A stretch of DNA of 64,000 nt from Polyangiaceae bacterium. Lineage in GTDB: Bacteria > Myxococcota_A > Polyangia > Polyangiales > Polyangiaceae. The notes below the pieces were generated by a model. It made no database searches. It was not told where the DNA came from and worked only from the letters and a program-made list of their open reading frames with translations. The stretch covers positions 1-64,000 of the forward strand of contig JAHBVY010000014.1 in the NCBI GenBank assembly GCA_019637265.1, read 5' to 3'. Both the position numbers and the translations under genes were made by a program. Each line of letters starts with the position of its first letter. The stretch's first letter is position 1. Positions 7,501 through 52,954 of this stretch are shown one piece after another.

Positions 7501-7665
7501 GACCCGTGCGAGGCGAACGGCGCGAGCGCCAGCAGCGCCCGCGTCATCAGTCGGCCTGCTCAGCGGCGCTTCGAGGTGGAGGTCGAGCGCCACGGGACAC
7601 AGCTCACCACCTCGGGGGAGCCCCTCGGCTTCAAGCTGCGCGCCGCGGTCGATCGCGAGCGGTGA
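4591..7665 (+). CDS. RecQ-like protein with degenerate helicase motifs and long Ala/Pro/Lys-rich N-terminus
   Basis: A 1024-residue protein. Residues 1 to about 495 are low-complexity (KAPARA-type repeats, then Ser/Arg/Pro-rich text with a 90-base tandem duplication) and probably disordered and basic. From about residue 498 the order follows RecQ: SQEQ near motif 0, a Walker A position reading PSGSRQV (525-531) instead of PTGGGKS, an IEAQ (623-626) instead of DEAH, a helicase-C domain with SYRYHSGMPHQARF, and motif VI reading LGLLGRDG (820-827) instead of GRAGRDG. The RecQ zinc site is kept exactly: C950, C967, C970 and C973 with the canonical spacing, followed by a short tail. ATPase activity looks lost, so a structural DNA-binding role is likely. 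The ATG at 4591 is preferred over TTG 4450. Confidence 0.75.
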   Translation: MARAIAARISVKKSSARGASNAKSPARAVSQEAPAGAKPASGEAPARAVRRKAPSAGKAPARAVITKAPSASKEAPARAASRKAPSSSKAPARAAAKPASATLAGRSTAVAKAPARATSKAPASTARGKSTRAATKPRAAAKASKSRSFLDALEAYLAVPGAGVAAPARQATGADLAADRGSRGGASGAKATSASARLPAQSPSRAAPPQAPSRASKSSELTDDARVVRRAPKSPELTIGAPSRASNSAELTDDARVIRRIPKSPGLTTGAAPHGDVPETGSSAYGGFGWAPPGRRSERPGGASLARARATAAEGRAGVGKRPVSGKRSVSDERSAAGSRPVSRKRLGSEHTEPRRLEASRASSDTGSPPARGGALRGEVATAPVVTPPATEALGEAGAPSSPRPLPMGVKRRGGDADGSPGQGAARAPSPSGPQVPYGRHVPKGSRLTYEGSRSGPPPAGITGRIASSFELSPFQAAPIVPVASSVREAGIERAAERLGRRLSQEQRRLISMALTGRDTLTLLPSGSRQVGTALVAASMMEHPAIVVHPASTWLKVHHDHLTARGVPSVCLDDTLSTHDRRTLVERVRFARSLVVLVTPRMLQREAVSRALGQASVSLAVLIEAQLFSEFSSEFEPSSACLDDVLEVLGRPVVMAFSSVASAAVRSDLIDGLRLRDPVVFDAPVVRTNIRLQVLRCEPEARRRILVSELSALDPPGVVICSNPREVEAVHQALGALNIKSYRYHSGMPHQARFAEQHAFAHQGRRAVMVAESGFVGLSAVGTDDRDAPSGYGLGTCRGDLRYLIHFRAPASLEQYVRDLGLLGRDGVPAHALMLYSPEDLECYPARPSLTALTALLELLQRGEDVPVTVSELASRMSASEAATAELVEALVDAGLVVRMGGWVRRALSPAQLMKRGEFLLDQLETLSEGDVQRRAQVGAFASEQPEAGCRFVSLHRYLGLPGGEPCGVCDPCEANGASASSARVISRPAQRRFEVEVERHGTQLTTSGEPLGFKLRAAVDRER
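5221..5400 (+). repeat. 90-bp tandem duplication inside the RecQ-like gene
   Basis: Two 90-base units (5221-5310 and 5311-5400) are clearly related and encode similar 30-residue blocks that both contain SELTDDARV or AELTDDARV followed by an R-R-x-P-K-S-P motif. The duplication is in frame and lies in the disordered N-terminal part. Confidence 0.85.
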
Positions 7666-7671
7666 GCTCCA

Positions 7672-7761
7672 GCCGCGGTGCTGAGCCAAGCCGCGGTGCT
7701 GAGCCAAGTCGCGGTGCTGAGCCAAGTCGCAGTGCTGAGCTGCAGCGCGGTGCCGAGCCGT
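7672..7761 (+). repeat. Five tandem 18-bp units after the RecQ-like gene
   Basis: Units of the form GCCGCGGTGCTGAGCCAA begin at 7672, 7690, 7708, 7726 and 7744; the first two are identical and the last two diverge. The array begins seven bases after the stop codon and fills most of the gap to the convergent GMC oxidoreductase gene. Confidence 0.85.
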
Positions 7762-7815
7762 AGCGCCGATCGCGGTGTGCGGAGCGGCAGGGCTCGGGCT
7801 CGCGTGACCGACCCA

Positions 7816-9439: not shown

Positions 9440-10039
9440 TCACTCGGCGGCCAGCGCTGTCGCGCCGAGCAGGGCGGGGCTCGCCACCAGCCGCTCGCGC
9501 AGCGCCACGCGCTCCTTCAGGAACGGCACTGGGCGGTAGTTCAGCCGCTCGTGCACCTCCGAGAGATCGAAGTAAGCGCTCAGCACCGAGCCGCGGATCC
9601 CCACCACCAGCAGGCGGAGCGGCATCCAGCGGGTGCTCGTGATGCGCGAGATGACCCGATCGGCAGCCTGACGATCCAGATCACCCAGGCGCCGCCAGCT
9701 CATGAACAGCAGGCGCGGCGCCCAGTCGAGCAAGATGAACGCGAGCCACAGGCCGCGGCCGGCGAGCGGGTGCATGTACATCATGAAGCCGCGCACGTGC
9801 AGCTCGATCTGGGTCAGCAGATCGCCGCTCATCGGCGCCGGGGGCGGCGGGCACAGCCGCTCGATGATGGCGTGGAGGCGCGCCCGGTAGCGATCGCTCA
9901 TCGGGTAAGGGTCCGCGTAGGTCCAGCCGTCCTTCGGGTGCCTCGCGAAGTCGTTCGTGCGCTGCATGGGGAGCTGCCGCTTGGGGGTGGGCAGGGCATC
10001 AGGCAGGGCTTCACGGCGCGGGCGGGGCGACTGGGACAT
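9440..10039 (-). CDS. Unknown protein encoded with the GMC oxidoreductase
   Basis: A 199-residue protein without a clear signal peptide. It has a Pro/Arg-rich first 30 residues, a hydrophobic central stretch (GRGLWLAFILLDWAPRLLFM) and a YFDLSEVHERLNYRP segment. It begins 10 bases after the GntR gene and ends 60 bases before the GMC oxidoreductase. That position suggests an accessory or small subunit of the enzyme, as gluconate-dehydrogenase-type GMC enzymes have one, but I see no diagnostic motif. The function is unknown. Confidence 0.75.
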   Translation of the reverse strand: MSQSPRPRREALPDALPTPKRQLPMQRTNDFARHPKDGWTYADPYPMSDRYRARLHAIIERLCPPPPAPMSGDLLTQIELHVRGFMMYMHPLAGRGLWLAFILLDWAPRLLFMSWRRLGDLDRQAADRVISRITSTRWMPLRLLVVGIRGSVLSAYFDLSEVHERLNYRPVPFLKERVALRERLVASPALLGATALAAE

Positions 10040-10049
10040 GGGGGCCTCG

Positions 10050-10799
10050 TTAGGGTTGGGGTTGGGCTTCTGGCTGGATCACGCTCTTGAGCAGCCCGAC
10101 GAACTCACGGTCGACGCGCTGGTAGTACTTGCGGCTGGCGAGGATCGCGCGCTCCTCGTCGCCGTCCGCGAGGGCGTTGATGGTCTCTCGCAGGTAGGTA
10201 GGGAAGCTGCCTTCGAGCACCCACAGCGCCGGGTACTTCTCCAGCAGGTCGCGGTAGGCGTCGAGGAAGGGGTTGGCGATCCAGCGGATGGCGGTGGAGT
10301 GCCCGGTGTCGATCAGCGCCTCCAGCCAGCGGTGGAAGCCCTTGCCGATCAGCGCGCCGTCCTTGGTCTCGAAGGCGGTGATGAGCAGATCCGTGATGCC
10401 GGTGAGGCGCTCGATGTCGCTGCGATCCGCCCGGCGCACCGCCATGCGGGTAGCGAACTCGAGCACCTGCTCGCGCGCCGGGAGAATATCCTCAAGGATA
10501 TGGATCACCTCGTGCAGCGATCCGCCCGCCTCGAGCAGCGGCGACAGCAGATCCATGGTGCCGGTCTTCTTGAAGTCGCTGACGGTGACGCCCTGGCCGT
10601 GGCGCACCGTGACCAACCGCGCCTGCTCCAGCTTGCGCACCGCCTCACGCAGGGTGTTGCGGTTCGTCTTGTAGGTGGAGGCGAGGTCGCGCTCGCCCGG
10701 CAGCCGCTGCCCTGCGGCCAGCTCACCCACCAAGATCTGGCGGCGGAGGTCGCGGAAGATGGTGTCGGCGATGTTCGAGCTGGGGGTCGGATCGTCCAT
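10050..10799 (-). CDS. FadR-subfamily GntR transcriptional regulator
   Basis: A 249-residue repressor-type protein. The N-terminal winged helix contains FRDLRRQILVGELAAGQRLP, the recognition helix region NRNTLREAVRKLEQARLV and the wing RHGQGVTV. A C-terminal all-helical FCD/FadR-like effector domain follows. The ATG at 10799 puts the HTH at the usual distance from the N-terminus; the frame is open to an ATG at 10937, which would add 46 residues unlike the family. It is the first gene of the operon with the unknown protein and GMC oxidoreductase, and two palindromic operators lie upstream, so it probably represses its own operon in response to a substrate-derived ligand. Confidence 0.9.
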   Translation of the reverse strand: MDDPTPSSNIADTIFRDLRRQILVGELAAGQRLPGERDLASTYKTNRNTLREAVRKLEQARLVTVRHGQGVTVSDFKKTGTMDLLSPLLEAGGSLHEVIHILEDILPAREQVLEFATRMAVRRADRSDIERLTGITDLLITAFETKDGALIGKGFHRWLEALIDTGHSTAIRWIANPFLDAYRDLLEKYPALWVLEGSFPTYLRETINALADGDEERAILASRKYYQRVDREFVGLLKSVIQPEAQPQP

Positions 10800-10944
10800 G
10801 CCGCTCACTTTAGAGCGCCCGCCTGGCGCGTGCGCCCACCCCGCGCCCGCGTCCCCAGCCAGCCGTGGGGCGAAGAGGGCGCGGAGCCCGACGTCGAGCG
10901 TCAGGAGCGGCGATGCGGCGGTGAGCGGGGCGTTCATGGCTGAG

Positions 10945-10975
10945 CTGGTTCAACCAGTATGGCTGGTTGAACCAG
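10945..10975. promoter_or_regulatory. Double palindromic operator upstream of the gntR operon
   Basis: Two 13-base palindromes, CTGGTTCAACCAG (10945-10957) and CTGGTTGAACCAG (10963-10975), are separated by five bases and are inverted copies of each other. Each contains TGGTnnnACCA, the recognised FadR-type GntR operator form. Their centres are 18 bases apart. Confidence 0.8.
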
Positions 10976-10983
10976 ATGATCAA
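10956..10983 (-). promoter_or_regulatory. Candidate promoter overlapped by the GntR operators
   Basis: On the minus strand TTGATC (10983-10978) and CATACT (10961-10956) are 16 bases apart. Both elements are touched or flanked by the two operators, which suits repression by occlusion. Transcription would start about 150 bases before the chosen gntR ATG. Confidence 0.4.
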
Positions 10984-11206
10984 GGGCCGTGAACAAAAAT
11001 ACGCACAAAAGTTGTAAACCATTGAAAAGATTGATGATTCAGACTTTACGCAGTCGTGAGACAGGTCGGGGTTCAGGTGTTTGGCAGGTCGCTGCCTGGC
11101 GCCGTATTCAGCCGACCCGGAGCGAGGCGCCGCGGTCCAGCCGCAAAGCCGCCGCCGCACGGCGCTCAATCCACCCCGGGAAATCTGGCGAGCGATCGGG
11201 TGGAGG
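10984..11206. other. Region upstream of the gntR promoter
   Basis: The segment at about 10985-11050 is notably AT-rich for this window and could be an upstream promoter element. The rest, to the end of the radical SAM gene, shows nothing recognisable. Confidence 0.4.
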
Positions 11207-12388
11207 TCAGCTGCCCTGAGCGTATCGCACGCCGGGCGGCAGCTCGCGCTCCCAGAGCTCGACGCCGAGCGCGGTCAGGCGCTCCGCCAGCTCAGCGGCG
11301 CGCGCCGCTTGCCAGGCGTCGCTGGCCGCCGCCTCGAAGCGCGGGTCGCTGAACTCCTGCGTCGCGCCCTCCACGCCGCGAAGCACGTCGATGCGCACCG
11401 AGCGGACGGCGCTGGCGAGCGCCTCCGCCAGGGCGTCGATGCTGCCCGGTAAGAGCGGCTGGACGATGGCGAAGGTGTCCACCCCGCGCTCGCGGAGCGC
11501 TCGGAGCGCGGACAGGCGCTCAGGGATGGATGCGCCGCGCGGCTCGAACGCGCGCCGCACGTCGTCATCCGCGGTGGGCAGGCTCATACCGGCGAACGCG
11601 CTCGGCAGCTCGGCGAGCAGCGCGGCGTCCTCCGCGATCATCGCCGAGCGCGTGAGCACGATGACGGAGCGCCCCGCGCCGTGATCGCGCAGCACCTCGA
11701 GGCAGCGCCGGGTGAGCCTCAGCTTGCGCTCGATGGCGTGGTAAGGATCACTCACGATAGGGCAGAACTTGACGGGCCAGTGTTTGGAGGCAGCTAGCTC
11801 GCGCTCCAGCACCTCGGGCGCGTTGACGCGCGCGTCCACCCAAGAGCCCCAAGGTGCCTCCGGGAGCCCCTGCAGCTCACGCAGCACCGAGAGCCGGCTC
11901 TGGGCGTAGCAGAAGCGGCAGCCGATCAGGCAGCCCACGTAGGGGCTCAGCGTGTAGTAGCGCTCGCCGAGCGAGCCCCAGCTCTGCAGCAGCTGCTCCA
12001 CCTCCACCTCGCGGATCCGCGCGCTGGGGTCCGCTGCTCGGGCGCGCGCCGCCGCTTCGGTGAGCTGCGCCTTCACGCGCACCTCGTTGGGGCGCGCCGC
12101 CTTCGCCACGGCGAGGCACAGCGCGCGGCCCAGCGCGGCGTCCAGCGGGCGGTCTTTGTCTCCGGTACGGTAAGCGAACTGAAAGTGCTCGCCGCGCGCG
12201 GCGGTGGGGCGCTCGGAGCGCGGCTCGATCTCCACGATGGCGCTCGCCGTGGGCAGCCGGAAGCGGAGCTGCAGCCCGAGCTCACTCGAGACCTCTTCGA
12301 GCTCCGCGCGGACGCCCGGCGCGACGGTCAGCGACTCGCCCAACGTGAGCGGCGCCACGAGCTTCAGCGGGAGATCAGCGGTGTCCAT
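11207..12388 (-). CDS. Radical SAM protein of the spore photoproduct lyase (SplB)-like family
   Basis: A 393-residue protein with the radical SAM iron-sulfur motif C153-x3-C157-x2-C160 in YVGCLIGCRFCYAQ. The segments PVKFCPIVSDPYHAIERKL, LTRR, VIVLTRSAMIAEDAALL and GMSLPT match the SPL/Rv2578c-like barrel proteins. SplB repairs a thymine lesion in spores, but many relatives have other unknown roles, so repair activity is not established. The N-terminal 150 residues are variable. It stands alone between long intergenic regions. Confidence 0.82.
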   Translation of the reverse strand: MDTADLPLKLVAPLTLGESLTVAPGVRAELEEVSSELGLQLRFRLPTASAIVEIEPRSERPTAARGEHFQFAYRTGDKDRPLDAALGRALCLAVAKAARPNEVRVKAQLTEAAARARAADPSARIREVEVEQLLQSWGSLGERYYTLSPYVGCLIGCRFCYAQSRLSVLRELQGLPEAPWGSWVDARVNAPEVLERELAASKHWPVKFCPIVSDPYHAIERKLRLTRRCLEVLRDHGAGRSVIVLTRSAMIAEDAALLAELPSAFAGMSLPTADDDVRRAFEPRGASIPERLSALRALRERGVDTFAIVQPLLPGSIDALAEALASAVRSVRIDVLRGVEGATQEFSDPRFEAAASDAWQAARAAELAERLTALGVELWERELPPGVRYAQGS

Positions 12389-38537: not shown

Positions 38538-38790
38538 GGCGGAGCCTTTGGTGAGGAGGAGGCGAGCGCTCGGCGCGGCGATCGCGCGGGCGCCCCGACT
38601 GCCTATCACGGATCGGCCGCAGCCCCCCCGCGTCTGGAGGCTCTGGTTCCCCCGCGGGGGATCGGCGGACTTCAGTGCTGCGCGTCGCGGGGAGTTGTCT
38701 CAACCTGCCTCGCCTCATCGCTGCCCTCGGGCGCTCGCGACCGATTAGGGGCCCATGCCGCCGCGCGGCTCGGGCTATGATGCCCCCCCG

Positions 38791-39789
38791 ATGCGGTCCC
38801 CCGGCTCCTCCCGCTTGGCTCGCTCACGTTCGCTGCTGGCCTGGAGCCGCGCGGCGCGCGCTGCCCTGCTCGGTTTCGTCGCGGCGCCCGGCCTGGCGCT
38901 CAGCCTCTCGGGGTGCAGCTGCGATGAAGAGCGCGCGCCGGCGCCCACGCCCTCGGCGCAAGAGGCGGAGCCCGCCATGCCGCCGGCGCGGCCGATCCAG
39001 GAGGTGAGCTTCTCGGCGGAAGACGGGGTGCCGCTCTCGGCGGAGCTGTTGCCAGGCATCCAACCGGACGACCCGCTCGTGGTGGTGGTGCATCGCTTCC
39101 ATGGCGATCGCGCGGAGTGGAAGGACTTGCTTCAGCGGCTCTCGCAGCAAACGGTGGGGCTCAGGGTGGTGAGCCTGGATTTGCGTGGGCACGGGGCGAG
39201 CCATCGCGACGCGGAGGGGGGTGTGCTGAGCTCGGGCGCGCTGTCACGCGAGCAGATCCCCAAGCTGCAGCGCGACGTGGAGGCCGCGATTCAGTTCGGC
39301 AAGCGAGACGTCAGCCCGGCTTTCGTGGTGCTGATCGGCAGCTCGCTCGGCGCGACCTTGGTGGCGCAGGTGGCCGCGAAGAGGCCTGACGTGAAGGCGT
39401 TGGTGCTGATTTCTCCGGGCGCGCTGCTCGAGGGACAAGACGTGTACTCCGCTTACGCCGAGGTCAGGCACCTCCCCACGCTGTTCGCGGTGGGGCGCGG
39501 TGACAACGTCTCCAGCGCGCCGATCGGCTCCTTGAAGCAGATGGCCAAGCGCGGTGAGCTGAAGGAGTACGACAGCCCGCATCACGGCGGGCTGCAGCTC
39601 GGCAACAGCGTGCCGCAGCTGTGGCACGACGTGGAGGGTTGGTTGCTCACGGTGCGGCGCACGGTAGACAGCGCCGCTGCCGATGCGGCGGACGCCGGGG
39701 CGGGGGACCCGGTGGACGATCAAGCTGACGGAATGAGCCGTGCACCTGACGCGCCGAACGACGCGGCAGCGCAGGCGGAGGGGGAGTGA
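38791..39789 (+). CDS. Lipoprotein with alpha/beta-hydrolase domain, first gene of the chemosensory operon
   Basis: A 332-residue protein with a signal sequence and lipobox LSLSGCSC, then an alpha/beta-hydrolase core: VVVVHRFHGDRAEW oxyanion region, LDLRGHGAS, IGSSLGATL with nucleophile S185 and a terminal SPHHGG histidine. It has an acidic Asp/Ala-rich tail. The stop codon overlaps the cheY start (GTGATG), so it is the first cistron of the operon. The ATG at 38791 is chosen from the signal peptide. Confidence 0.8.
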   Translation: MRSPGSSRLARSRSLLAWSRAARAALLGFVAAPGLALSLSGCSCDEERAPAPTPSAQEAEPAMPPARPIQEVSFSAEDGVPLSAELLPGIQPDDPLVVVVHRFHGDRAEWKDLLQRLSQQTVGLRVVSLDLRGHGASHRDAEGGVLSSGALSREQIPKLQRDVEAAIQFGKRDVSPAFVVLIGSSLGATLVAQVAAKRPDVKALVLISPGALLEGQDVYSAYAEVRHLPTLFAVGRGDNVSSAPIGSLKQMAKRGELKEYDSPHHGGLQLGNSVPQLWHDVEGWLLTVRRTVDSAAADAADAGAGDPVDDQADGMSRAPDAPNDAAAQAEGE

Positions 39790-40286
39790 TGCGGGTCCTG
39801 GTGGTCGAGGATTCAGCCAGCATGCGCTCCTTCGTGCGGAGCGCGCTCGAGTCCGAGCCGAGCTTCGACGAGGTGGAGGTGGTGGAGGCCGCCAGCGGCT
39901 TCGACGCGCTGCGGCTGCTGCCGAGGGGGCCGTACCAGCTGGTGATCACCGACATCAACATGCCGGACATCAACGGGCTCGAGCTGCTGCGCTTCATCCG
40001 CACCAGCGCGCGGCACCCAGACGTGCCGGTGCTCATCATCTCCACCCAGCGCTCCGAACGCGATCGGGAGCGCGGCCTGGCGCTCGGCGCGACGGGCTAC
40101 CTGGTGAAGCCGTTCAGCGCGGAGGCGCTGTGCGAGGAGGTCGCGCGGCAGATCAGAGCAGCTGACGACGCGGCGCAGGGCTCGAATGCGCCGCAGGGCT
40201 CGAATGCGCCGCCTGATGGTGCGCTCGCCGAGCCCAAGCCTGGCGCTGCGGGGCGGGCGGGTGATGAGGGGGAGCCCGATGGTTGA
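39789..40286 (+). CDS. cheY: CheY-like response regulator
   Basis: A single receiver domain: acidic pair VVEDSASMRS, phosphoacceptor D55 in LVITDINMPDING, conserved Thr/Ser in IISTQRSE and Lys in LVKPFS. After residue 125 a low-complexity tail follows containing two copies of an 18-base unit. It probably takes phosphate from the adjacent CheA. The stop overlaps the cheA start by eight bases. A GTG at 39786 would add one residue. Confidence 0.92.
   Translation: MRVLVVEDSASMRSFVRSALESEPSFDEVEVVEAASGFDALRLLPRGPYQLVITDINMPDINGLELLRFIRTSARHPDVPVLIISTQRSERDRERGLALGATGYLVKPFSAEALCEEVARQIRAADDAAQGSNAPQGSNAPPDGALAEPKPGAAGRAGDEGEPDG
40175..40210 (+). repeat. 18-bp tandem duplication in the CheY tail
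   Basis: GCAGGGCTCGAATGCGCC occurs twice back to back (40175-40192 and 40193-40210), adding QGSNAP twice to the receiver's C-terminal tail. Confidence 0.9.
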
Positions 40287-42399
40287 GCTCGGTGACAAAG
40301 CGCGCGAGGAGTTCTTCAGTGAGGCTCAGGAGATCATCGAGCAGCTGAGCCGGAGCCTGCTCAGCTTGGACGCCGCCGAGCGGGGCGGGAAGAGCGACCC
40401 GTCGCTCATCAACGAGGCGTTCCGCGCGGTGCACACGCTGAAGGGCCTGGCGGGGCTGTTCGGCGCCAGCCGGATGGGGCAGCTCAGCCACGAGCTGGAG
40501 GACATCTTGGATGACCTTCGCCTCGGGCGGCTCGCCCTCAGCGCGCGCGTGCTCGATCTGCTGTTCGCCGCCGTGGAGACCTATGGGCAGGTGCTGAGCG
40601 CGGAGCGCGAGCAGAGCTTGGAGTCGCTGCCCGGGCTCGATGAGTTGCTCGAGCGCGTCCGCGGCGTGCGTCAGGCGCCGGCGGCCACCAGCCACCCGAT
40701 CGCCGAGTATGAGCTCGATCCAGGGGTGCTCGCGGTGCTCACGGAGTACGAGGAGCATCGCCTGCGCTCGAGCGTGGAGCATGGCCTCGGGCTGTTCCGG
40801 CTGCGGGTGGAGTTCGACCTCGCGACCATCGATAAGGCGCTGGAGGACATCAAGCAGCGCGGTAAGGCGCACGGGGAGATCATCACCTACCTGCCCACGG
40901 GGGAGGCGAGTCGGCCTGACACCATCGAGCTCGATCTGCTGATGGCATCGACCGACACCCTGACCACGCTGCGCGCGTCGCTGGCCGATGATCACGTGAC
41001 GATCGACGAGGTGCCGCGCCGCCGCATCGCGACCAGCGTCACCATCCCCCCCGAAGAAGCTCGCTCCGAGGAGGGCCTCGCGCGGGCGCGCTCCGAAGCG
41101 GTGCGCTCCGAGATCAGCCAGGAGCCCGTGGAGCCTGGCGGGGGCGCGCTGGACGCCAGCCTTCGCAGCGTGACCCAGACGGTGCGGGTGGACATCCGCA
41201 AGCTCGACCACCTGATGAACATCGTGGGTGAGCTCGCCATCGTGCGCGGCGCGGTGGCGCGCACCGCCGAGCGCCTGCGCGCCGAGGGTCAGCGCCAACT
41301 GGCCTCCGAGCTGGCCCGCCTGCATCGCACCTTCGATCGGCGCCTGAGCGAGATGCAGGAGGGGATCTTGGAGGTGCGGATGGTGCCGCTCGGGCAGGTG
41401 TTCGATCGCCTGGCTCGGGTGGTGCGCCAGATCAGCCGCGAGGTGGGCAAGGAGATCCGCCTGGTGATCACCGGCGCGGAGACGGAGATAGACAAGCTCA
41501 TCGTGGAGGAGCTCAGCGACCCGCTGATGCACATGATCCGGAACGCCATCGATCACGGCATCGAGGGGACACTGCAGCGTGAATCCGTGGGGAAACCGGC
41601 CGCCGGCACCATCGCCCTGAACGCGTACCAGAAGGGCAACCACGTCATGATCGAGATCGAGGATGACGGGGCGGGGGTGGACGACGTGGCGCTGGTGCGC
41701 CGCGCGGTGGAGGGCGGCAAGCTGGACCCGGCGGAGGTGGGCGACCTGAGCCGCGACGAGATCTTGGGGCTCATGTTCTTGCCCGGGGTGAGCACCCGAG
41801 AGGAGGCGGGGGACCTCAGCGGGCGCGGTGTGGGGATGGACGTCGTGAAGACGAACATCAGCAAGCTCGGTGGGGTCATCGACGTGCAGTCGGAGATGGG
41901 CATCGGCACCAAGATGACCATCACCTTGCCGATCACGCTGGCCATCGTGAGCGCCCTGGTGATCCGGGTGGGGGTGCAGGTGTTCGCGATCCCGCTCAGC
42001 AGCGTGAGCGAGGCGATCGCCTTCGAGGAGGCGCACGTCCGCGTGGTGGACACGCGCGAGGTGATGACGCTGCGCGGGCGGACGTTGCCGCTCTGTCGCC
42101 TGCGTCAGTTGTTCCAGTTGCCTGACGAGCGCCAAGGGCGCGGCTTCGTGGTGGTGACGGAGGTGGGCAGCCGGCGCCTGGGGCTGGTGGTGGATCACCT
42201 GGTGGGGCAGCAGGACATCGTCATCAAGGCGCTCGGGGAGTCGCTCGCCAGGGTGCGAGGGATCGCTGGAGCGACGGAGATGGAAGATCAGAAGGTGGCG
42301 CTAGTGCTCGACACCGCGGCGCTGATGGAAGAGGTGCTGGTGGGGCTCGAGGCGCGGGAGCTGAGCGAGCGCCGGGAGGACAGGCGATGGGCCAGATGA
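40279..42399 (+). CDS. cheA: Chemotaxis histidine kinase CheA
   Basis: A 706-residue hybrid-free CheA. The HPt domain has the phosphorylated histidine H52 in FRAVHTLKGLAGLFG. A dimerisation domain, the HATPase (NAIDHGIEG N-box, GRGVGMDVVK G-box) and a C-terminal CheW-like domain follow. The region between HPt and dimer domain (about residues 130-290) does not match the usual P2. The start is taken at 40279 because it overlaps the cheY stop and gives a normal HPt N-terminus. Confidence 0.97.
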   Translation: MVELGDKAREEFFSEAQEIIEQLSRSLLSLDAAERGGKSDPSLINEAFRAVHTLKGLAGLFGASRMGQLSHELEDILDDLRLGRLALSARVLDLLFAAVETYGQVLSAEREQSLESLPGLDELLERVRGVRQAPAATSHPIAEYELDPGVLAVLTEYEEHRLRSSVEHGLGLFRLRVEFDLATIDKALEDIKQRGKAHGEIITYLPTGEASRPDTIELDLLMASTDTLTTLRASLADDHVTIDEVPRRRIATSVTIPPEEARSEEGLARARSEAVRSEISQEPVEPGGGALDASLRSVTQTVRVDIRKLDHLMNIVGELAIVRGAVARTAERLRAEGQRQLASELARLHRTFDRRLSEMQEGILEVRMVPLGQVFDRLARVVRQISREVGKEIRLVITGAETEIDKLIVEELSDPLMHMIRNAIDHGIEGTLQRESVGKPAAGTIALNAYQKGNHVMIEIEDDGAGVDDVALVRRAVEGGKLDPAEVGDLSRDEILGLMFLPGVSTREEAGDLSGRGVGMDVVKTNISKLGGVIDVQSEMGIGTKMTITLPITLAIVSALVIRVGVQVFAIPLSSVSEAIAFEEAHVRVVDTREVMTLRGRTLPLCRLRQLFQLPDERQGRGFVVVTEVGSRRLGLVVDHLVGQQDIVIKALGESLARVRGIAGATEMEDQKVALVLDTAALMEEVLVGLEARELSERREDRRWAR

Positions 42400-42878
42400 C
42401 GGCGCGGCGCTCCGCGCAGCTCGCGGAGGCGGCGGAGCGCGGGCTGGTGCACGAGTACCTGGCCTTCGTGCTCGCGGGTGAGCTCTACGCGGTCGATCTG
42501 GCGCGCGTCCGCGAGATCTTGAGCCCACCGCCGATCACCTTGGTGCCACGCGCGGGGCGCGAGGTGCTCGGCGTGTGCAGCGTGCGCGGGCTCCTGGTCA
42601 CGGTGGTGGACTTGCGGCTTCGGCTCCGGTTGCCGGCCGCGCCGGTGACGCGCCGGAGCCGCATCTTGCTCGCGCTGGCCAACTCGGGGGAGGTGGTGGG
42701 CTTGATGGTCGATGAGGTGAAGCAGGTGGTCAGGTTGGCTGAGTCGGAGCTGGAGCTCGCGCAAGGGGTGCTCGGCGGGGACGTCGCGGAGCACGTGATG
42801 GGGATCGCGCGGCCCGCGGGCGCGGTGCTGGTGCTGCTCGATCTCGGGGCGATCGTGTCGGGAGCGGCCCGTGGCTAG
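42387..42878 (+). CDS. cheW: CheW-type coupling protein, first copy
   Basis: A 163-residue CheW. The EYLAFVLAGELYAVDLARVREIL opening, PRAGREVLGVCSVRGLLVTVVDLRLRLR core and LMVDEVKQVVRL segment are typical. It connects CheA to a receptor. The start overlaps the cheA stop by 13 bases. The downstream gap of 75 bases contains a dispersed palindromic element. Confidence 0.95.
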   Translation: MGQMTARRSAQLAEAAERGLVHEYLAFVLAGELYAVDLARVREILSPPPITLVPRAGREVLGVCSVRGLLVTVVDLRLRLRLPAAPVTRRSRILLALANSGEVVGLMVDEVKQVVRLAESELELAQGVLGGDVAEHVMGIARPAGAVLVLLDLGAIVSGAARG

Positions 42879-42884
42879 CGCGCC

Positions 42885-42935
42885 TCGTCGTCCACTGGAG
42901 CGCGATGAGCGGCGAACCGTTCGTCACACTGACGT
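42885..42935 (+). repeat. Dispersed palindromic element, copy 4, inside the che operon
   Basis: CGTCGTCCACTGGAGCGCGA and the core GAGCGGCGAACCGTTCGTCA match the other copies of the family. It fills the only real gap in an otherwise overlapping operon, between the two cheW genes. Confidence 0.65.
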
Positions 42936-42953
42936 CCGCTGCGGAGGCGACGC

Positions 42954-43448
42954 GTGACGCACAAGTTCCGCCCTGTGTCCGCCAAGAGCCTGGTCGGCTT
43001 CGTGGTGGGCGACGTCGGCTACGCGGTGCCGATCAGCGCGGTGCGGGAGATCGTGAACCCGCTGCCGCTCACCGCGCTGCCTCACGCGCCCCCCGCGGTG
43101 GCGGGCGTCGCCGATCACCGCGGTGAGGTGCTCTCCGTGGTGGACCTGCGGGTGCGCTTCGGCGTCGCCCCGCGCGGCGATCGCTCGCGTGACAAGTGGA
43201 TCTTGGTGGAGTCCGGGGGGCGCACCGTGGGCCTCATCGTCGACCGGGTGACGGAGGTGTTCGGTACCGCAGGCGAGGCGCTGCGCCCGGCGCCCGAGCT
43301 GGGGGTTGGGGACGACGTGCGCGGCATCGTCGGGGTCACCACCCACGACGGCACGCTCACCTTCGTGCTCGACGTGAGTCGGTTCGATGAGCTGACGCAA
43401 GGTGTGGGCGCGCCGGCGCTCTCCGCGCCGAAGGAGGGCATGAAGTGA
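42954..43448 (+). CDS. cheW: CheW-type coupling protein, second copy
   Basis: A 164-residue CheW from a GTG start. The LVGFVVGDVGYAVPISAVREIV opening, AVAGVADHRGEVLSVVDLRVRF core and VGLIVDRVTEVF segment identify it. It is only distantly similar to the first copy, so it may couple CheA to a different receptor or to another partner. Its stop codon overlaps the next gene's GTG. Confidence 0.95.
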   Translation: MTHKFRPVSAKSLVGFVVGDVGYAVPISAVREIVNPLPLTALPHAPPAVAGVADHRGEVLSVVDLRVRFGVAPRGDRSRDKWILVESGGRTVGLIVDRVTEVFGTAGEALRPAPELGVGDDVRGIVGVTTHDGTLTFVLDVSRFDELTQGVGAPALSAPKEGMK

Positions 43449-45586
43449 GCGTCGAGCGTCCTCGGGATCAGGCGTCGGCGGTGGTGGAGGCGCGGCGTCA
43501 GGCGATCGCGGCGCTGGCGGAGGAGCCGAGCGCCGATCGCGTGGAGCGCCTGATGGAGGCGCTCGGGGACGAGGAGTGGCGCATCCGCAAGGAGGCGGTG
43601 AGCGTCATCAAGCAGCTCTCGCCTTCATCCGTTTTACTGACGGCGTTGCTCGACGCGCTGGCGCCGGGCGAGAACGTGGGGCTCCGCAACGCGGCGGTGG
43701 AGGCGATCGGTCACTTCGGTGAGGTCGCCGCGGCGGGCTTGGTGGAGCGGCTCCCGTCGCTCGACGCCGACGGTCGGAAGCTGGCGGCCGAGGCGCTCGC
43801 GGCGGCGGGCGGCGCGCGGGCGCTCGATGGGCTCGCGGCGCTGCTGGAGGACGCCGACCCCAACGTGCGCGCGGCGGCGGTGGAGGCCGTCGGCAGCGCG
43901 GCGATCGGCAGCTACCCGCGCGCGGTGGCGCTGCTCGAGGGTTGCCTCGACGACGCCGAGCCCTTCGTTCGCTTCGCTGCTTTGGATGGCTTGAATCGAT
44001 TGGAGGTGGTGCTGCCGCTGTCGGTGCTCACGCCGCTGCTCACTGCGCGCGCGCTGCTACCCGCCGCGCTGCTCGCGGCGGGGCGCACCGGCGAGCCCCA
44101 GGCCGCGGCGCCGCTCGTCGGCGCGCTCTCTCGCGCGCGTGGGAGCGGCTGGGTGACGGCGGCCATCGCGCTGAGTCAGCTCGCCGCGTCAGGGGAGCGC
44201 GCGCGGACGGCGGTGCGGCGCGCGCTCGAGGGGCTCGCCGCGGCGGATCGCAAGAAGCTGCTGCACCTCGCGACGGAGGCGCCGCCGCCCGGTGGCGGTG
44301 GTGAGGAGGCCGATCCTGGGCGCCGGGCGGCGCTGCTGCTCGCCGGGGTGCTCGGCGGTCGCGAGGCGGCGCGGGCGGCGCTCTCGGGGCTCGAGCACGA
44401 CACCCTGGCGGGTGAGGCGGAGGCTGCCCTGCTCTGGATCGGCGTCGACGCCATCGAGCCTCTGGTCGAGCAGCTCACGGTGGGCTCCTCGGCGCGGCCT
44501 GCCGTGCTCGGGGTGCTCGGGCGGCTCCTGCGCGGCTCACCCGCGCACCCCGCCGCGGAGCACCTCGTCTCGGCGCTGTCCGCCAGCGAGCCGCAAGTTG
44601 CCCGCGCGGCGCTGCTCGCGCTCTCGGAGGTGCGGGACGTGCGCTGCCTCGGCGCCTGCGAGCGCTGGCTCACCCTGAGCGCGCCCCCAGGGCTCCGCAA
44701 GGCGGCGGAGCAGGCGCTGTCGCTGGTCGCCGATAATTTCCGTGAGGAAACTTTGACGCTGGCGCGCGCCGCCGCCCAGCGCGAGACGGGGGCGCTGCTC
44801 GTCGCCTGCGTGATCACCCTGCTGGGTGGCCCCGTGCTCGGCGACTTGGATCAAGATCTCGAGTACCTGGCGCGCGAGCTGAACAGCGAGAGCGCCGTGG
44901 TGCGCCGCGCGGTGGCGGAGGCGCTGGGGAGCGTGCGGAGCGCGCGCAGCGTGGACATCGTGGTGTTCGCGCTGACCGACGAGGAGCCGGAGGTGCAGCT
45001 CGCCGCGGTGCGCGCGCTGGGCCGCGCGCGTTCCCCTGAAGGTCAGCCGCTCGGCGTGGAGCGGCTGCTCGAGCTGATCGAACGTTCTCCTGACGAAATC
45101 GTGGTGGCGGCGGCGCTGCCCGCGCTGGGCGAGACTCAGGACCCACGCGCCGCGGCGGCGCTGCGGCCCCTCGCGCGCAGCGCCTCGGCCCTGGTCGCCG
45201 TCTCCGCGGTGGAGGCGCTCGGCGGCCTCGCGCGTGAGCTCGGCCCGCGCGCGGGCCAGGCGCTGAGCGGGCTGATCGAGGCGCTCTCCCACCCCGAGCC
45301 CGAGGTGGTCAAGGCCGCCGCGAGCGCGCTCTCGGAGCACCCCGATCCACGCGTGGTGACCCACCTCGGCGCTTGCTTGGATCACGAAGCCTGGGACGTG
45401 CGGCGCCTCGCGGCCGACCTGATCGGGCGCCGCGGCGGCCCTGGCACCATCGAGCTGCTCACGGCGCGCCACGCGCTCGAGACGGATCGCTCGGTGCGTG
45501 AGGCGGTGGCGCGCGCCTTGACGCGGCTCGCCTCGGCCTCGGGTCGCTTCACCACCTCACCCCCGCCGCGCTCAGAGCACGCGTGA
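43445..45586 (+). CDS. HEAT-repeat protein of the chemosensory operon
   Basis: A 713-residue protein made of alpha-helical HEAT/PBS-lyase-like repeats from end to end, seen as recurrent blocks of VRxAAVEALGxxG-type sequence. The GTG start overlaps the second cheW stop and its own stop overlaps cheR, so it is part of the operon. HEAT repeats bind other proteins. In Myxococcus xanthus the Che7 chemosensory system acts on the HEAT-repeat protein Cpc7; a comparable output role here is an inference from gene order. Confidence 0.9.
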   Translation: MSVERPRDQASAVVEARRQAIAALAEEPSADRVERLMEALGDEEWRIRKEAVSVIKQLSPSSVLLTALLDALAPGENVGLRNAAVEAIGHFGEVAAAGLVERLPSLDADGRKLAAEALAAAGGARALDGLAALLEDADPNVRAAAVEAVGSAAIGSYPRAVALLEGCLDDAEPFVRFAALDGLNRLEVVLPLSVLTPLLTARALLPAALLAAGRTGEPQAAAPLVGALSRARGSGWVTAAIALSQLAASGERARTAVRRALEGLAAADRKKLLHLATEAPPPGGGGEEADPGRRAALLLAGVLGGREAARAALSGLEHDTLAGEAEAALLWIGVDAIEPLVEQLTVGSSARPAVLGVLGRLLRGSPAHPAAEHLVSALSASEPQVARAALLALSEVRDVRCLGACERWLTLSAPPGLRKAAEQALSLVADNFREETLTLARAAAQRETGALLVACVITLLGGPVLGDLDQDLEYLARELNSESAVVRRAVAEALGSVRSARSVDIVVFALTDEEPEVQLAAVRALGRARSPEGQPLGVERLLELIERSPDEIVVAAALPALGETQDPRAAAALRPLARSASALVAVSAVEALGGLARELGPRAGQALSGLIEALSHPEPEVVKAAASALSEHPDPRVVTHLGACLDHEAWDVRRLAADLIGRRGGPGTIELLTARHALETDRSVREAVARALTRLASASGRFTTSPPPRSEHA

Positions 45587-46497
45587 CCCGCGCCGCCTCG
45601 TCCAGCCCCTGGCGCCTCGCTTCGGATGATTTCCGGCTGCTGCGGGACGCCATCAAGGAGCGCGCGGGGCTCCACTTCGATGATGAGGCCGCCTACCTGT
45701 TCGAGCGCCGGCTCAGCGAGCGCGTGGAGGCGCTCGGCCTCTCGGGCTTCTCCGAATACTACAAGTACCTCCGCTTCCACCTGCGCGGCCGCGCGGAGAT
45801 GGAAGAGGCGATCGAGCTGCTCACCACCAAGGAGACTTACTTCTTTCGCCAAGAGTATCAGCTGCACGGCTTCCGCGATGAGCTCTTGCCGCGTCTCTAC
45901 GAGGCGAACCGCGCCCGTCGCCGGCTCACGGTGTGGAGCGCGGGCTGCTCCACGGGGGAGGAGGTCTACACGCTGGCGATCTTGATCCACCAGACGCGGC
46001 TGTTCGATGGCTGGGACGTCCGGGTCATCGGCAGCGATCTGTCGCGCGCCAGCGTGGCGCGAGCGCGGAGCGGCATCTATCGTGGCTCGGCGTTCCGCGT
46101 GACCTCCAAGTCGCTGCTCGACACCTACTTCACGGAGGTGCCGGGCGACGTGCGCGGCGGGCAAGCTTACCAGGTGGTGGACACCATCCGGCGCCGCTGT
46201 CAGTTCGGTCAGCTGAACTTATTGGACCCGAGCGCGGCGCCGCTGGTGGGCCGGGTGGACGCGGTGTTCTGTCGTAACGTGCTCATCTACTTCGACGTGG
46301 AGGCGCGGCGGCGCGTGATCGACATGCTTTATGATAGGTTGCTCCCGGGCGGCTACTTGATGCTGGGGCACTCCGAGTCACTCATCCACGTCTCGACGGC
46401 GTTCGAGCTGGTCCACCTCACTGAAGACTTGGTGTATCGCCGTCCACTGGCGGGCGCTCCCCTGTCCTCGACCACGTCGATCGCGGGGCTCAAATGA
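45583..46497 (+). CDS. cheR: Chemotaxis protein methyltransferase CheR
   Basis: A 304-residue AdoMet-dependent methyltransferase that methylates receptor glutamates. The N-terminal helical domain has LLTTKETYFFRQEYQLHGF; the AdoMet site is LTVWSAGCSTGEEVYTLAI; the FCRNVLIYFD signature and the LGHSESL segment follow. It starts with a GTGA overlapping the HEAT gene and ends with an ATGA overlapping cheB. No methyl-accepting receptor gene lies in the window. Confidence 0.97.
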   Translation: MTRAASSSPWRLASDDFRLLRDAIKERAGLHFDDEAAYLFERRLSERVEALGLSGFSEYYKYLRFHLRGRAEMEEAIELLTTKETYFFRQEYQLHGFRDELLPRLYEANRARRRLTVWSAGCSTGEEVYTLAILIHQTRLFDGWDVRVIGSDLSRASVARARSGIYRGSAFRVTSKSLLDTYFTEVPGDVRGGQAYQVVDTIRRRCQFGQLNLLDPSAAPLVGRVDAVFCRNVLIYFDVEARRRVIDMLYDRLLPGGYLMLGHSESLIHVSTAFELVHLTEDLVYRRPLAGAPLSSTTSIAGLK

Positions 46498-47555
46498 GCG
46501 AGCCCATCAAGGTGCTCATCGTGGATGACTCCGCCTTCAATCGGCGGAGCGTGGCGCAGGCGCTCGGCGCGAGCCCAGAGGTGCGCGTGGTGGGCACCGC
46601 GGCTGACGGTGAGGAGGCGCTCCGGCTGGTGTCCGCGCTGCGCCCGGACGTCATCACGCTGGACCTCGAGATGCCGAAGATGGATGGCTTCACCTTCCTC
46701 CGCATCTTGATGAGCAAGATGCCGACGCCCGTCATCGTGGTGTCGAGCTACGCGCAGAAGGAGAACGTGTTCCGGGCGCTCGAGCTGGGCGCGCTCGACT
46801 TCATCGCCAAGCCTGACCGTCATTTAGACATGGAAATGGTCGGCGTGCGCGGCGCGCTGCTGCAGAAGGTGCTGCTCGTGCGCTCGCTCCGGCCGGATTC
46901 GCTCTCGCGTGCGCGGAGCTCCGAGCCGCTCTCCGCCGGCCTCCTGTCGGCCCAGCGCCCGCGCGCGCCTCGGGTCGCCCCGCGTCACCTGGTGGCCATC
47001 GCGTCGTCTACGGGTGGGCCCACGGCGCTGATGGAGATCTTCGCCAAGCTGCCTGAGCGTCGCAGCGTGGCGGCGGTGGTCGCGCAGCACATGCCCGAGA
47101 AGTTCACGCGCACCTTCGCGGAGCGTTTGGATCGGCGCTCGCACCTCAGCGTGAGTGAGGCGCAAGACGGCGACGAGGTCACCGAGCAGACGGCCTTCGT
47201 GTGCCCCGGGCGCAAATGCATGGAGCTCGAGGGCGAGGGTGGCTCGAGCATCGCGCGGCTCCGCATCCGCTTCCCCGACCCGAGCGATCGCTACGTGCCG
47301 AGCGCGGATCGGCTGCTCACCTCCGCCGCCCAGGTCGCAGGGCCACGCACCATCGGCGTCATTCTCACCGGCATGGGGGACGACGGCCTGCAAGGCGCTC
47401 GCGCCATCCGCGAGGCGGGTGGGCGCGTGATCGCCGAGAGCGAGGAGACCGCGGTCGTGTATGGCATGCCGGGGGCCGTGGTTCGGGGGGGGTTGGCTAA
47501 CGACGTGTTGCCCTTACCGGCGATCGCGGCCTGGCTCGCGGCGCTGGGCGGCTGA
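46494..47555 (+). CDS. cheB: Chemotaxis response regulator protein-glutamate methylesterase CheB
   Basis: A 353-residue two-domain protein. The receiver has VLIVDDSAFNRRS and phosphoacceptor D57 in ITLDLEMPKMDG. The methylesterase domain has the catalytic Ser in VAIASSTGGPTALMEIF, His in VVAQHMPEKFTRTFAERLD and Asp in ILTGMGDDGLQGARAIREAG. It removes the methyl groups that CheR adds. It is the last gene of the operon. Confidence 0.97.
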   Translation: MSEPIKVLIVDDSAFNRRSVAQALGASPEVRVVGTAADGEEALRLVSALRPDVITLDLEMPKMDGFTFLRILMSKMPTPVIVVSSYAQKENVFRALELGALDFIAKPDRHLDMEMVGVRGALLQKVLLVRSLRPDSLSRARSSEPLSAGLLSAQRPRAPRVAPRHLVAIASSTGGPTALMEIFAKLPERRSVAAVVAQHMPEKFTRTFAERLDRRSHLSVSEAQDGDEVTEQTAFVCPGRKCMELEGEGGSSIARLRIRFPDPSDRYVPSADRLLTSAAQVAGPRTIGVILTGMGDDGLQGARAIREAGGRVIAESEETAVVYGMPGAVVRGGLANDVLPLPAIAAWLAALGG

Positions 47556-50513: not shown

Positions 50514-50569
50514 GGCGGCGGAGCATGCCCAAGGCACCGAGCGCGCTCAAGCCGCGCCCCGACCCCTGT

Positions 50570-50594
50570 GTAGGGGCGGGTTTCAAACCCGCCC
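50570..50594. repeat. Palindromic GGGCGGGTTTGAAACCCGCCC element, copy 4
   Basis: GTAGGGGCGGGTTTCAAACC followed by CGCCC, in the opposite orientation to copies 1 to 3, lies between the divergent fumC and lytic transglycosylase genes. Confidence 0.85.
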
Positions 50595-50725
50595 GCGCTC
50601 GAAGCCAAGACACCGCATACGCTCGAGCGGCGCCCCTGCCAGGAGCTGTGCGTTTGGATCAACATCCTTGCGAACGGCGGCAGAGGTTTGACCGGCTTGG
50701 GCCAGACCGGTACCACTCGGGAGCC

Positions 50726-52954
50726 ATGATCTCGCTCCCATCGCAAGGCGTTCAGCGACGATCCCGGATCCGCCATCTGGGTCTGGGGTTGGGGGTTTGG
50801 CTGTGCACTGTCCTCCTGCCAGGCGCCGTGCTGGCGCAGGAGAAGGAGCCGCCGCGCACCGGGCCGGGTGCCGGCGCGGGGCAGCGTAAGGTGGAAGAGG
50901 GCGCCGACGCGAAGCCGGATGACAAGGACGCCGGCGCGAAGGACGCGGACGCCAAAGACGCCGACACCCAAGACGCTGGCGCGAAGGACGAGCCGAAGCC
51001 CGACGCCAAGCCGGACGCCAAGCCCGAGCCCAGCAAGCCGCCGCCCGTCGATCACAAGCAGGGTCCGGCGCCGCGGCGTCCGAGCCCCACGCTGCCGAAG
51101 GGTGCCAAGGGCAGCGCCGCGGACCCCGCGACGCGGCGCGCGCTGGCGGAGGGCCCCGTGCGCGGCCAGCCCGATCTGGATGACGAGGAGATCCAGGCGC
51201 TGGTGGCGGCCGATCAGGTGCTGTTCAAGCGGCCGCTCGCCGGCGCCACCCCGGGCTGGTCCTGGGGCCTGCCGCAGAAGTCAGGGCCACGAGCTGCTGG
51301 CGCGGGGGTGCCGCCGCAGGGCGCGCTCACGCCAGGGCAGGCGCCGGAGGCGGCGCGCGCCGGGTGGCTCGCTCAGCTGACGATGCCCAACTTCGAGGTG
51401 CGGCTCGATCCACGGGTGGTCACCTACCTGGAGTTCTACAAGAGCAACCCGCGGGGCCAGGCGATCGCCAAGGTGTGGGCGAAGAAGTCGGGGCGCTACG
51501 CGCCAGCGCTGATGGCGGAGCTGGCCAAGTCAGGGCTCCCGACGGATCTCGTGTGGCTCTCGCTGATCGAGAGCGGCCACAACCCGACCATCTACTCGAG
51601 CGCCGGGGCCGCGGGGCTGTGGCAGTTCATCCCTGACTCGGGCCGCATGTACGGCCTCACCGTGGACCGCTGGGTGGACGAGCGGCTGGACCCAGAGCGC
51701 AGCACGCAGGCGGCGATCCGTTACCTGTCCGATTTGCACACGCGCTTCGGCAACTGGGAGCTCGCGATGGCCGCCTACAACATGGGCCACGGCGGGCTGT
51801 CGCGCGCGATCCGCAAGTACAACACCAACGACTTCTGGGAGCTCTCCCGCTACGAAGCGGGCATCCCTTGGGAGACCGCGCTCTACGTCCCCAAGATCGC
51901 CGCCATCGCGATCGTGATGAACAACAAGCGGGTGTTCGGGCTGGACCACATCGAGCCCGATCCGCGTGAGAAGTTCGACGTGGTGGAGGTGCCCCAGGGC
52001 GTGACCCTGACCGACGTGGCCGCCGCGGCGAAGCGCCCCAAGGCGGAGGTGGAGGCGCTGAACCCGCACTACCTCGCGAGCCGCGTGCCGCCGGCCGCGG
52101 CGGCCGGTGAGAAGGCGAAGCCCGCCACCTGGCGCGTGAAGTTGCCGCGCGGCAGCGGCAAGCAGGCGCGCGCCGGGCTCGCCCACGTGGCGCGCATCGA
52201 CGCGAAATATGAGCCCTACGCGGTGCGCTTCGGTGACACCCTGGAGCAAATCGCCGCTGACGTGGGGCTCACGGAGCAGGCCTTGCGGGCGCTGAACGGC
52301 GCGAAGAAGGGGGAGCGGCTCCAGGCGGGTGAGGTGCTGCTCGTCCCCAAGGCGAAGCCGGCGAAGCGCACGGTGACCGAGCAGCTGGTGGCGGTGGTGC
52401 CACCTCGTCAGTTCAGCTACCCAGGGCGGCGGCGCGTGTTCTACACCGCGCTCACGGGGGACAGCCTGGAGGCGGTGGCCGCGGCCTTCGAGGTGTCGCG
52501 CGCAGAGCTCATCACCTGGAACGGGCTGGACACCAGCGCGCGGCTGCTCCCGGGGATGGTGCTCCAGCTGTTCGTGAAGCCGAGCTTCGACCTGGGTCAG
52601 GTGCGGGTCGCGGAGCAGCCGCTGGTGCTGACCGCCGGCAGCGAGGAGTTCTTCGCGCACTTCGAGGGCAAGGAGGGGCGCCAGCGGCTGCGGGTGACGG
52701 TGCAGCCGGGTGACACCCTCACCAAGATCGGCCAGCGCTACGGGATGAGCGTGGGGATGATGGAGCGCATCAACCGCATCGCGCGCACCAAGGTGCTGAA
52801 GCCGGGGGAGACCCTGATCGTGTACGCCAAGGCAGGCGCCGGCGCGAAGAGCGCGGAGGACAGCCAGGTGAAGCGCGAGGAGCTGCCCCCGGTGGACGAG
52901 GCCGCGGCGCCCGATCGCAGCGAGCCGCCGCCGCTCCGCGCCGGCACGCCGTGA
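50726..52954 (+). CDS. MltD-like membrane-bound lytic transglycosylase with LysM repeats
   Basis: A 742-residue secreted peptidoglycan-cleaving protein. A signal peptide ending in LLPGAVLAQ is followed by a highly acidic Asp/Lys/Pro-rich linker (about residues 40-125). The goose-type SLT domain (about 255-375) has the catalytic E282 in LSLIESGHNP, then AAGLWQFIP and AAYNMGHGG. Three LysM peptidoglycan-binding motifs lie at about 497-540, 570-612 and 655-700 (YAVRFGDTL, YTALTGDSL, VTVQPGDTL). The ATG at 50726 gives the signal peptide and has GGGAG upstream. Confidence 0.95.
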   Translation: MISLPSQGVQRRSRIRHLGLGLGVWLCTVLLPGAVLAQEKEPPRTGPGAGAGQRKVEEGADAKPDDKDAGAKDADAKDADTQDAGAKDEPKPDAKPDAKPEPSKPPPVDHKQGPAPRRPSPTLPKGAKGSAADPATRRALAEGPVRGQPDLDDEEIQALVAADQVLFKRPLAGATPGWSWGLPQKSGPRAAGAGVPPQGALTPGQAPEAARAGWLAQLTMPNFEVRLDPRVVTYLEFYKSNPRGQAIAKVWAKKSGRYAPALMAELAKSGLPTDLVWLSLIESGHNPTIYSSAGAAGLWQFIPDSGRMYGLTVDRWVDERLDPERSTQAAIRYLSDLHTRFGNWELAMAAYNMGHGGLSRAIRKYNTNDFWELSRYEAGIPWETALYVPKIAAIAIVMNNKRVFGLDHIEPDPREKFDVVEVPQGVTLTDVAAAAKRPKAEVEALNPHYLASRVPPAAAAGEKAKPATWRVKLPRGSGKQARAGLAHVARIDAKYEPYAVRFGDTLEQIAADVGLTEQALRALNGAKKGERLQAGEVLLVPKAKPAKRTVTEQLVAVVPPRQFSYPGRRRVFYTALTGDSLEAVAAAFEVSRAELITWNGLDTSARLLPGMVLQLFVKPSFDLGQVRVAEQPLVLTAGSEEFFAHFEGKEGRQRLRVTVQPGDTLTKIGQRYGMSVGMMERINRIARTKVLKPGETLIVYAKAGAGAKSAEDSQVKREELPPVDEAAAPDRSEPPPLRAGTP

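Follow-up and report, generated by a model that had tools for sequence, protein, structure and literature searches.

What does a HEAT-repeat protein do inside a chemosensory operon that encodes no receptor, and which receptor serves such an operon? The question is raised by the window analyzed here, the first 64,000 nucleotides of contig JAHBVY010000014.1 of a Polyangiaceae bacterium, in which an eight-gene run encodes a lipoprotein hydrolase, CheY, CheA, two CheW proteins, the HEAT-repeat protein, CheR, and CheB. We compared this run with the genomes of 39 relatives and with a scan of one genome per species, and found that its leading CheY and its HEAT protein are present or absent together, and that one family of methyl-accepting chemotaxis protein (MCP), encoded in the source genome on another contig, accompanies its CheA. 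Taken as a whole, and with a probability of roughly 0.6, the run would be an operon of the Che8/beta-group/Esn type, in which the unlinked MCP signals through CheA and CheY to the HEAT protein as a scaffold or adaptor, CheR and CheB provide adaptation, and the output is a process other than motility.

The run and the stretch preceding it comprise the following features.

38610..38754, no strand: intergenic stretch between a divergent FTP-propeptide gene and the operon (gene coordinates)
38755..39789, plus strand: lipoprotein alpha/beta-hydrolase (HYD), first gene (Pfam Hydrolase_4, E 1.9e-13; lipobox and GSSLG elbow by reading)
39786..40286, plus strand: CheY, stand-alone receiver (Pfam Response_reg, 6.3e-27)
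40264..42399, plus strand: CheA histidine kinase, Che8 type (Pfam Hpt, H-kinase_dim, HATPase_c, and CheW domains)
42387..42878, plus strand: CheW 1 (Pfam CheW, 1.7e-29)
42954..43448, plus strand: CheW 2 (Pfam CheW, 1.6e-32)
43445..45586, plus strand: HEAT-repeat solenoid protein of about 20 repeats (Pfam HEAT_2, 2.4e-56)
45583..46497, plus strand: CheR receptor methyltransferase (Pfam CheR, 6.8e-53)
46494..47555, plus strand: CheB receptor methylesterase with a receiver (Pfam CheB_methylest, 5.1e-58)

Open reading frames and Pfam matches bear out the eight genes and their order as described in an earlier, sequence-only reading of this DNA, as well as its statement that stops and starts overlap at all but one junction. 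With CheA starting, as it probably does, at the ATG at 40264, the junctions from 5' to 3' measure −4, −23, −13, +75, −4, −4, and −4 nt, so that six of seven overlap and the sole gap of the operon, 75 nt, separates CheW1 from CheW2. The operon start given in that reading, 38791, falls on an ATG inside the hydrolase frame, which runs from 38755 to 39789. Gene coordinates make 38610..38754 the likely promoter region.

As the sequence-only reading had proposed, we looked for the same gene order in relatives, and the order Y-A-W-W-HEAT-R-B recurs among their fetched loci. Chance is excluded as an explanation of the order because relatives share it. A CheA orthologue was found in 34 of the 39 relatives (at least 409 bits, the next CheA scoring 296 bits) and the HEAT protein in 27 of 39 (E≤1e-20). 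When the HEAT alignment was run against one genome per species, 289 pattern matches came up; 251 were confirmed, and of these we kept the best 80. In all 80 the HEAT gene lies inside a che cluster. CheR is the very next gene in 78 (the remaining two lie at contig ends), and a CheW or MCP gene lies no more than 1.7 kb before it in 79 (the other being a contig start). These loci span Myxococcota, Desulfuromonadales, and Nitrospirae, including Geobacter sp. AOG1, Geomobilimonas luticola, and Nitrospirae metagenome-assembled genomes, and those nearest to the window operon come from metagenome-assembled genomes of Polyangia and Polyangiaceae. The fullest versions of the operon (L228, L229, L231, and L233) add an MCP, a Zn-ribbon/weak-receiver protein, a GAF protein, and a second CheY. 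Judged by this conservation, the HEAT protein is an integral and old part of the chemosensory system.

The leading CheY and the HEAT protein were scored in 154 loci; 25 of these could not be used (in 13 CheA was unreadable, and 12 are cut at an end), leaving 129. Both genes are present in 116 loci and both are missing from 12; none has HEAT alone, and the single locus with CheY and no separate HEAT gene, L057, encodes a HEAT-CheR fusion. The proportions are biased, as some species-scan loci repeat relatives' genomes, and for many loci HEAT itself was the means of finding them or its having been missed was the reason for choosing them; what counts, therefore, is that no locus is discordant. A CheA tree was built for those 64 loci of the window and the relatives' genomes that could be scored; with L057 taken as HEAT-bearing, CheY and HEAT each need seven changes on it. 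The tree yields seven independent contrasts over all branches and five on supported branches, all five in the same direction (p 0.0625). Thirteen HEAT-less genomes, including G034 with its early-ending che contig, were searched throughout with the HEAT profile: 12 gave no match at E≤1e-30, and the thirteenth, G009, has nothing but a weaker one, next to a different CheA and an MCP. The same profile recovered G023 and G136, both HEAT-bearing. In two loci, L243 (G262) and L236 (G077), a receiver-like protein stands between CheW2 and CheR or HEAT, and L243 keeps this protein with CheY and HEAT gone.

The HEAT protein itself was modeled with AlphaFold2 from the window sequence and 69 species-scan homologues, at a mean pLDDT (predicted local distance difference test score) of 94.3 over 713 residues and a pTM (predicted template modeling score) of 0.86. 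The model contains 41 helices of at least four residues, or about 20 repeats. The best conserved part is the first 240 residues, at 2.16 bits per column; the middle scores 1.54 and the last third 1.89. L40, D42, W45, R46, R48, R81, N82, K112, and D138 are invariant in the 70 alignment rows. Fold searches with the model returned generic long solenoids only (SF3b, CAND1, karyopherins), and sequence matches in the PDB were mainly designed alphaRep and adaptin proteins; neither search gave a functional hint.

The statement in the sequence-only reading that the operon has no receptor holds for the operon and for contig C6, to which the window belongs and on which no MCPsignal match was found; it does not hold for the source genome (5.7 Mb in 21 contigs), which has three such matches, all on other contigs. 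Among these, the candidate for a dedicated receptor is the MCP at C9:12548-14347, on the minus strand. It has two close hydrophobic stretches (a hairpin near residues 5-50), and neither a Pfam sensor domain nor a GAF domain was found in it; we thus predict a protein with a hairpin in the membrane, an extensive cytoplasmic portion, and no periplasmic domain. Of the 39 relatives, 32 have a counterpart of the C9 MCP that scores at least 449 bits; the next MCPs score no higher than 192 bits. CheA and C9-type MCP are both present in 32 relatives, CheA alone in two (G012 and G023), and neither in five (Fisher p 3.6e-5, uncorrected for kinship). Two genomes with neither, G018 and G029, have 7 and 10 other MCP matches, and in G005, G027, G028, and G037, each with one CheA by PF02895, the C9-type MCP is the sole MCP.

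The signaling tip of the receptor points in the same direction. The C9 type carries NAAIIAAQAGE in 38 of 52 distinct fetched copies; the other 14 fall outside the search pattern, and five of these, of a long distant type (L221-L225), read as NAAIIAAQAG. MCPs encoded within operons of the type (f33, f37, f39, f45, and f48 genomes; Deltaproteobacteria, Myxococcales, and Nitrospirae records) have the tip NAAI(I/L)AA(Q/A)(A/S)G and once NASIIAAQAG, while ten other MCPs read NAA(V/I)EAA(R/H)AG. The variable residues presumably lie at the contact with CheA and CheW. The HAMP-domain MCP on contig C1 was rejected as the receptor for its usual NAAIEAAHAG tip, and the MCP-like coil on C16 because its match is weak and short and it lies next to an Hpt-HATPase gene of its own. 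That C16 locus (L060:7821-12763) encodes a DUF4388-receiver, a 129-aa protein, the 257-aa truncated MCP-like coil, and the Hpt-HATPase protein, in which no CheW domain was detected; short, weak MCP matches of this kind recur across many relatives. On C9, a sensor histidine kinase gene (L058:11657-13336, minus strand) lies directly upstream of the receptor gene, with homologues beside the receptor in 10 other genomes.

To which class does the operon belong? Published systems are described here after excerpts of the papers cited. In these, the Che8 cluster of M. xanthus (MXAN_4759 to MXAN_4751) reads Y8b-A8-W8b-W8a-4755-4754-R8-B8-Y8a, with no MCP in the cluster (PMC3945109, PMC6194562), and is conserved in Anaeromyxobacter and G. 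sulfurreducens (PMC2330069); the beta group of Geobacter is conserved in M. xanthus and others, with unpublished mutants affected in matrix (PMC2577667); and EsnA is an unlinked receptor with no periplasmic domain that associated with EsnC and EsnB in a two-hybrid assay, esn mutants growing poorly on electrodes (PMC5585712). These excerpts together lead us to infer that the names beta group, che8, and esn all denote one cluster. The single Y-A-W-W-(x)-R-B run of the window fits both the published Che8 locus-tag order and the relatives' loci, and the assignment of the operon as a Polyangia member of this type is well supported by gene order and by homology to the Geobacter member, M. xanthus being compared by published gene order only. 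Unlike the window, Che8 has two unnamed genes between CheW and CheR, a second CheY after CheB, and a longer CheA (862 aa versus about 711); by analogy with L231, MXAN_4755 and MXAN_4754 would be a Zn-ribbon/receiver protein and a HEAT protein. Geobacter members have HEAT between CheW and CheR (L330, Geobacter sp. AOG1; L336, Geomobilimonas luticola). L330 has the full CheY-CheA-CheW-CheW-HEAT-CheR-CheB order, and its CheA-ATPase-CheW run matches GSU2222-2221-2220, with EsnC and EsnB (gene names from the excerpt of PMC5585712). The predicted C9 receptor shares with EsnA its unlinked position and the lack of a periplasmic domain, whereas EsnA has a GAF domain, and the Geobacter cluster, unlike the window, adds an AAA ATPase, a DUF4388 protein, further receivers, and a GAF protein. 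A search of the class of G045 for a CheA at the Che8 level found none (best 305 bits). Our literature search, which did not cover the 2007 M. xanthus pathway review or Darnell 2014, found no HEAT protein described for Che8, beta-group, or Esn clusters.

The hydrolase follows a pattern of its own. Nine of the 68 comparable loci (window and relatives' genomes) have it ahead of cheY/cheA, as do 7 of 65 species-scan loci; two of the latter, L313 and L329, are weak matches and were admitted at a laxer cut-off; it changes four times on the CheA tree. The conserved association with the operon in relatives, whose lack the sequence-only reading had named as refuting its view, was thus found for HEAT and not for the hydrolase, which is not tied to HEAT because L152, L154, and L155 keep it with CheY and HEAT gone. 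In these three loci GxDxG, with Asp third, replaces GxSxG. The window protein has a lipobox that we take to be LSGC, with Cys54 as the lipidated residue. We regard the hydrolase as a putative lineage-specific passenger or effector rather than a general input.

Three other explanations were weighed against CheY acting through HEAT. The least credible, in which we place almost no belief, is the one first proposed for this DNA, a homologue of M. xanthus Che7 with the lipoprotein hydrolase as its periplasmic input. Che7 is likewise tied to a HEAT protein and has a role in development (PMC9040617, in excerpt), but a HEAT protein in the operon is common to the Che8 type, and Che7 has one CheW and encodes Mcp7 inside its operon (PMC3945109, in excerpt), whereas the window has two CheWs and no MCP between CheW and CheR, so we rejected the kinship in favor of the Che8/beta group. 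As for the input, the hydrolase is patchy, and a periplasmic product could not be read by the predicted receptor because that receptor lacks a periplasmic domain. A Che7-like order was seen in G009 (C527:23159-29691), where CheA, an MCP, and a distant HEAT protein stand in a row. Improbable, though less so, is that HEAT is a passive structure of the array unlinked to CheY, the HEAT-less lineages being degenerating systems that lose several genes: in 4 of the 12 HEAT-less loci no CheR adjoins the cluster either, and in L252, one of the four, CheB is missing as well. However, CheA and both CheWs are kept in all 12, the receptor is kept in five of six tested genomes, and, the L057 fusion apart, 0 of 129 loci lost just one of CheY and HEAT.

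The main rival makes HEAT an adaptation scaffold that brings CheR, and possibly also CheB, to the receptor array in the manner of the TPR domains fused to CheR in other non-motility pathways, with the joint loss of CheY a by-product of a shift to another response regulator; we consider it unlikely, and clearly less so than the other two. In the window the HEAT gene runs 4 nt into cheR; the two genes are neighbors in nearly all species-scan loci, and HEAT-CheR fusions occur in two distant lineages, L057 (G027; flipped, 9622-11640), in which a short N-terminal HEAT part alone remains ahead of CheR, and, by reading, L236 (G077; 5988-7814). In the CheR-TPR proteins of pathways with alternative cellular functions a solenoid repeat is likewise coupled to CheR, and such fusions are found mainly in non-motility pathways (PMC3447774, in excerpt), whereas the HEAT protein of the window system is usually separate and about 700 aa long. 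Against this, CheY is kept in both fusion loci, and 8 of the 12 HEAT-less loci keep CheR beside the cluster while none keeps the leading CheY. Several points also weigh against our own proposal. The supported contrasts number just five, on a quick CheA tree with 20 open forks; the fusions favor CheR over CheY as the partner of HEAT; and HEAT loss can belong to a wider decay because four HEAT-less loci also lost CheR. The co-presence of receptor and CheA is confounded by kinship and assembly completeness: G023 has operon parts and no MCP match, and G012 has CheA and an MCP of 167 bits only.

In the mechanism we propose, with CheY acting through HEAT, the C9 MCP would form an array with both CheWs and CheA, which would phosphorylate the stand-alone CheY and CheB; CheR would methylate and CheB demethylate the receptor. 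Phosphorylated CheY may then be read by the HEAT solenoid, which would serve as a pathway scaffold or output adaptor for a non-motility process such as surface, matrix, or developmental control. All steps of phosphotransfer and binding, and the cellular output, are conjectural. The non-motility output through HEAT suggested by the sequence-only reading agrees with the conservation of HEAT and with an effect of the Geobacter relative on surface colonization (PMC5585712, in excerpt). CheA8 and CheA7 are reported to act on the orphan regulator MXAN_4468 (PMC9040617, in excerpt), a hint that the reach of a Che8 kinase can extend to a regulator encoded beyond its operon, as CheY-less lineages would need.

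The operon is flanked by genes for the divergent FTP-propeptide protein and a LysM/SLT transglycosylase (Pfam) and, by reading alone, for esterase-like, EamA-like, and fumarase-like proteins. The tail of the divergent neighbor resembles what we take to be a MYXO-CTERM motif; with the Polyangia and Polyangiaceae origin of the loci closest to the operon, this puts the source genome in Polyangia. No flagellar or pilus gene was found among the flanking genes read or scanned, a genome-wide search for motility genes not having been made. In L035:13642-15306 and L039:10532-12112, an HtrA-like trypsin/PDZ protein follows CheB and precedes a transglycosylase homologous to the product of the window gene at 50525-52954.

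Che8 had no identified function in the excerpt of PMC9040617, and the functions of the beta group were called unknown in 2008 (PMC2577667, in excerpt). The present comparison supplies a receptor, a tip signature, and a CheY-HEAT partner pair with natural absences in 12 loci for testing, and genomes with one CheA and one MCP open the whole pathway to study free of cross-talk. Beyond the window, we tentatively suggest, at somewhat less than even odds, that HEAT solenoids may be dedicated phospho-CheY effectors defining a chemosensory class across Myxococcota, Desulfuromonadales, and Nitrospirota, held near the array with CheR and served by receptors whose tip code is distinct, with I/L and Q/A replacing the usual E and R. 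If HEAT is indeed an effector of phospho-CheY, it would be a further kind of CheY target beside the flagellar motor and the pilus.

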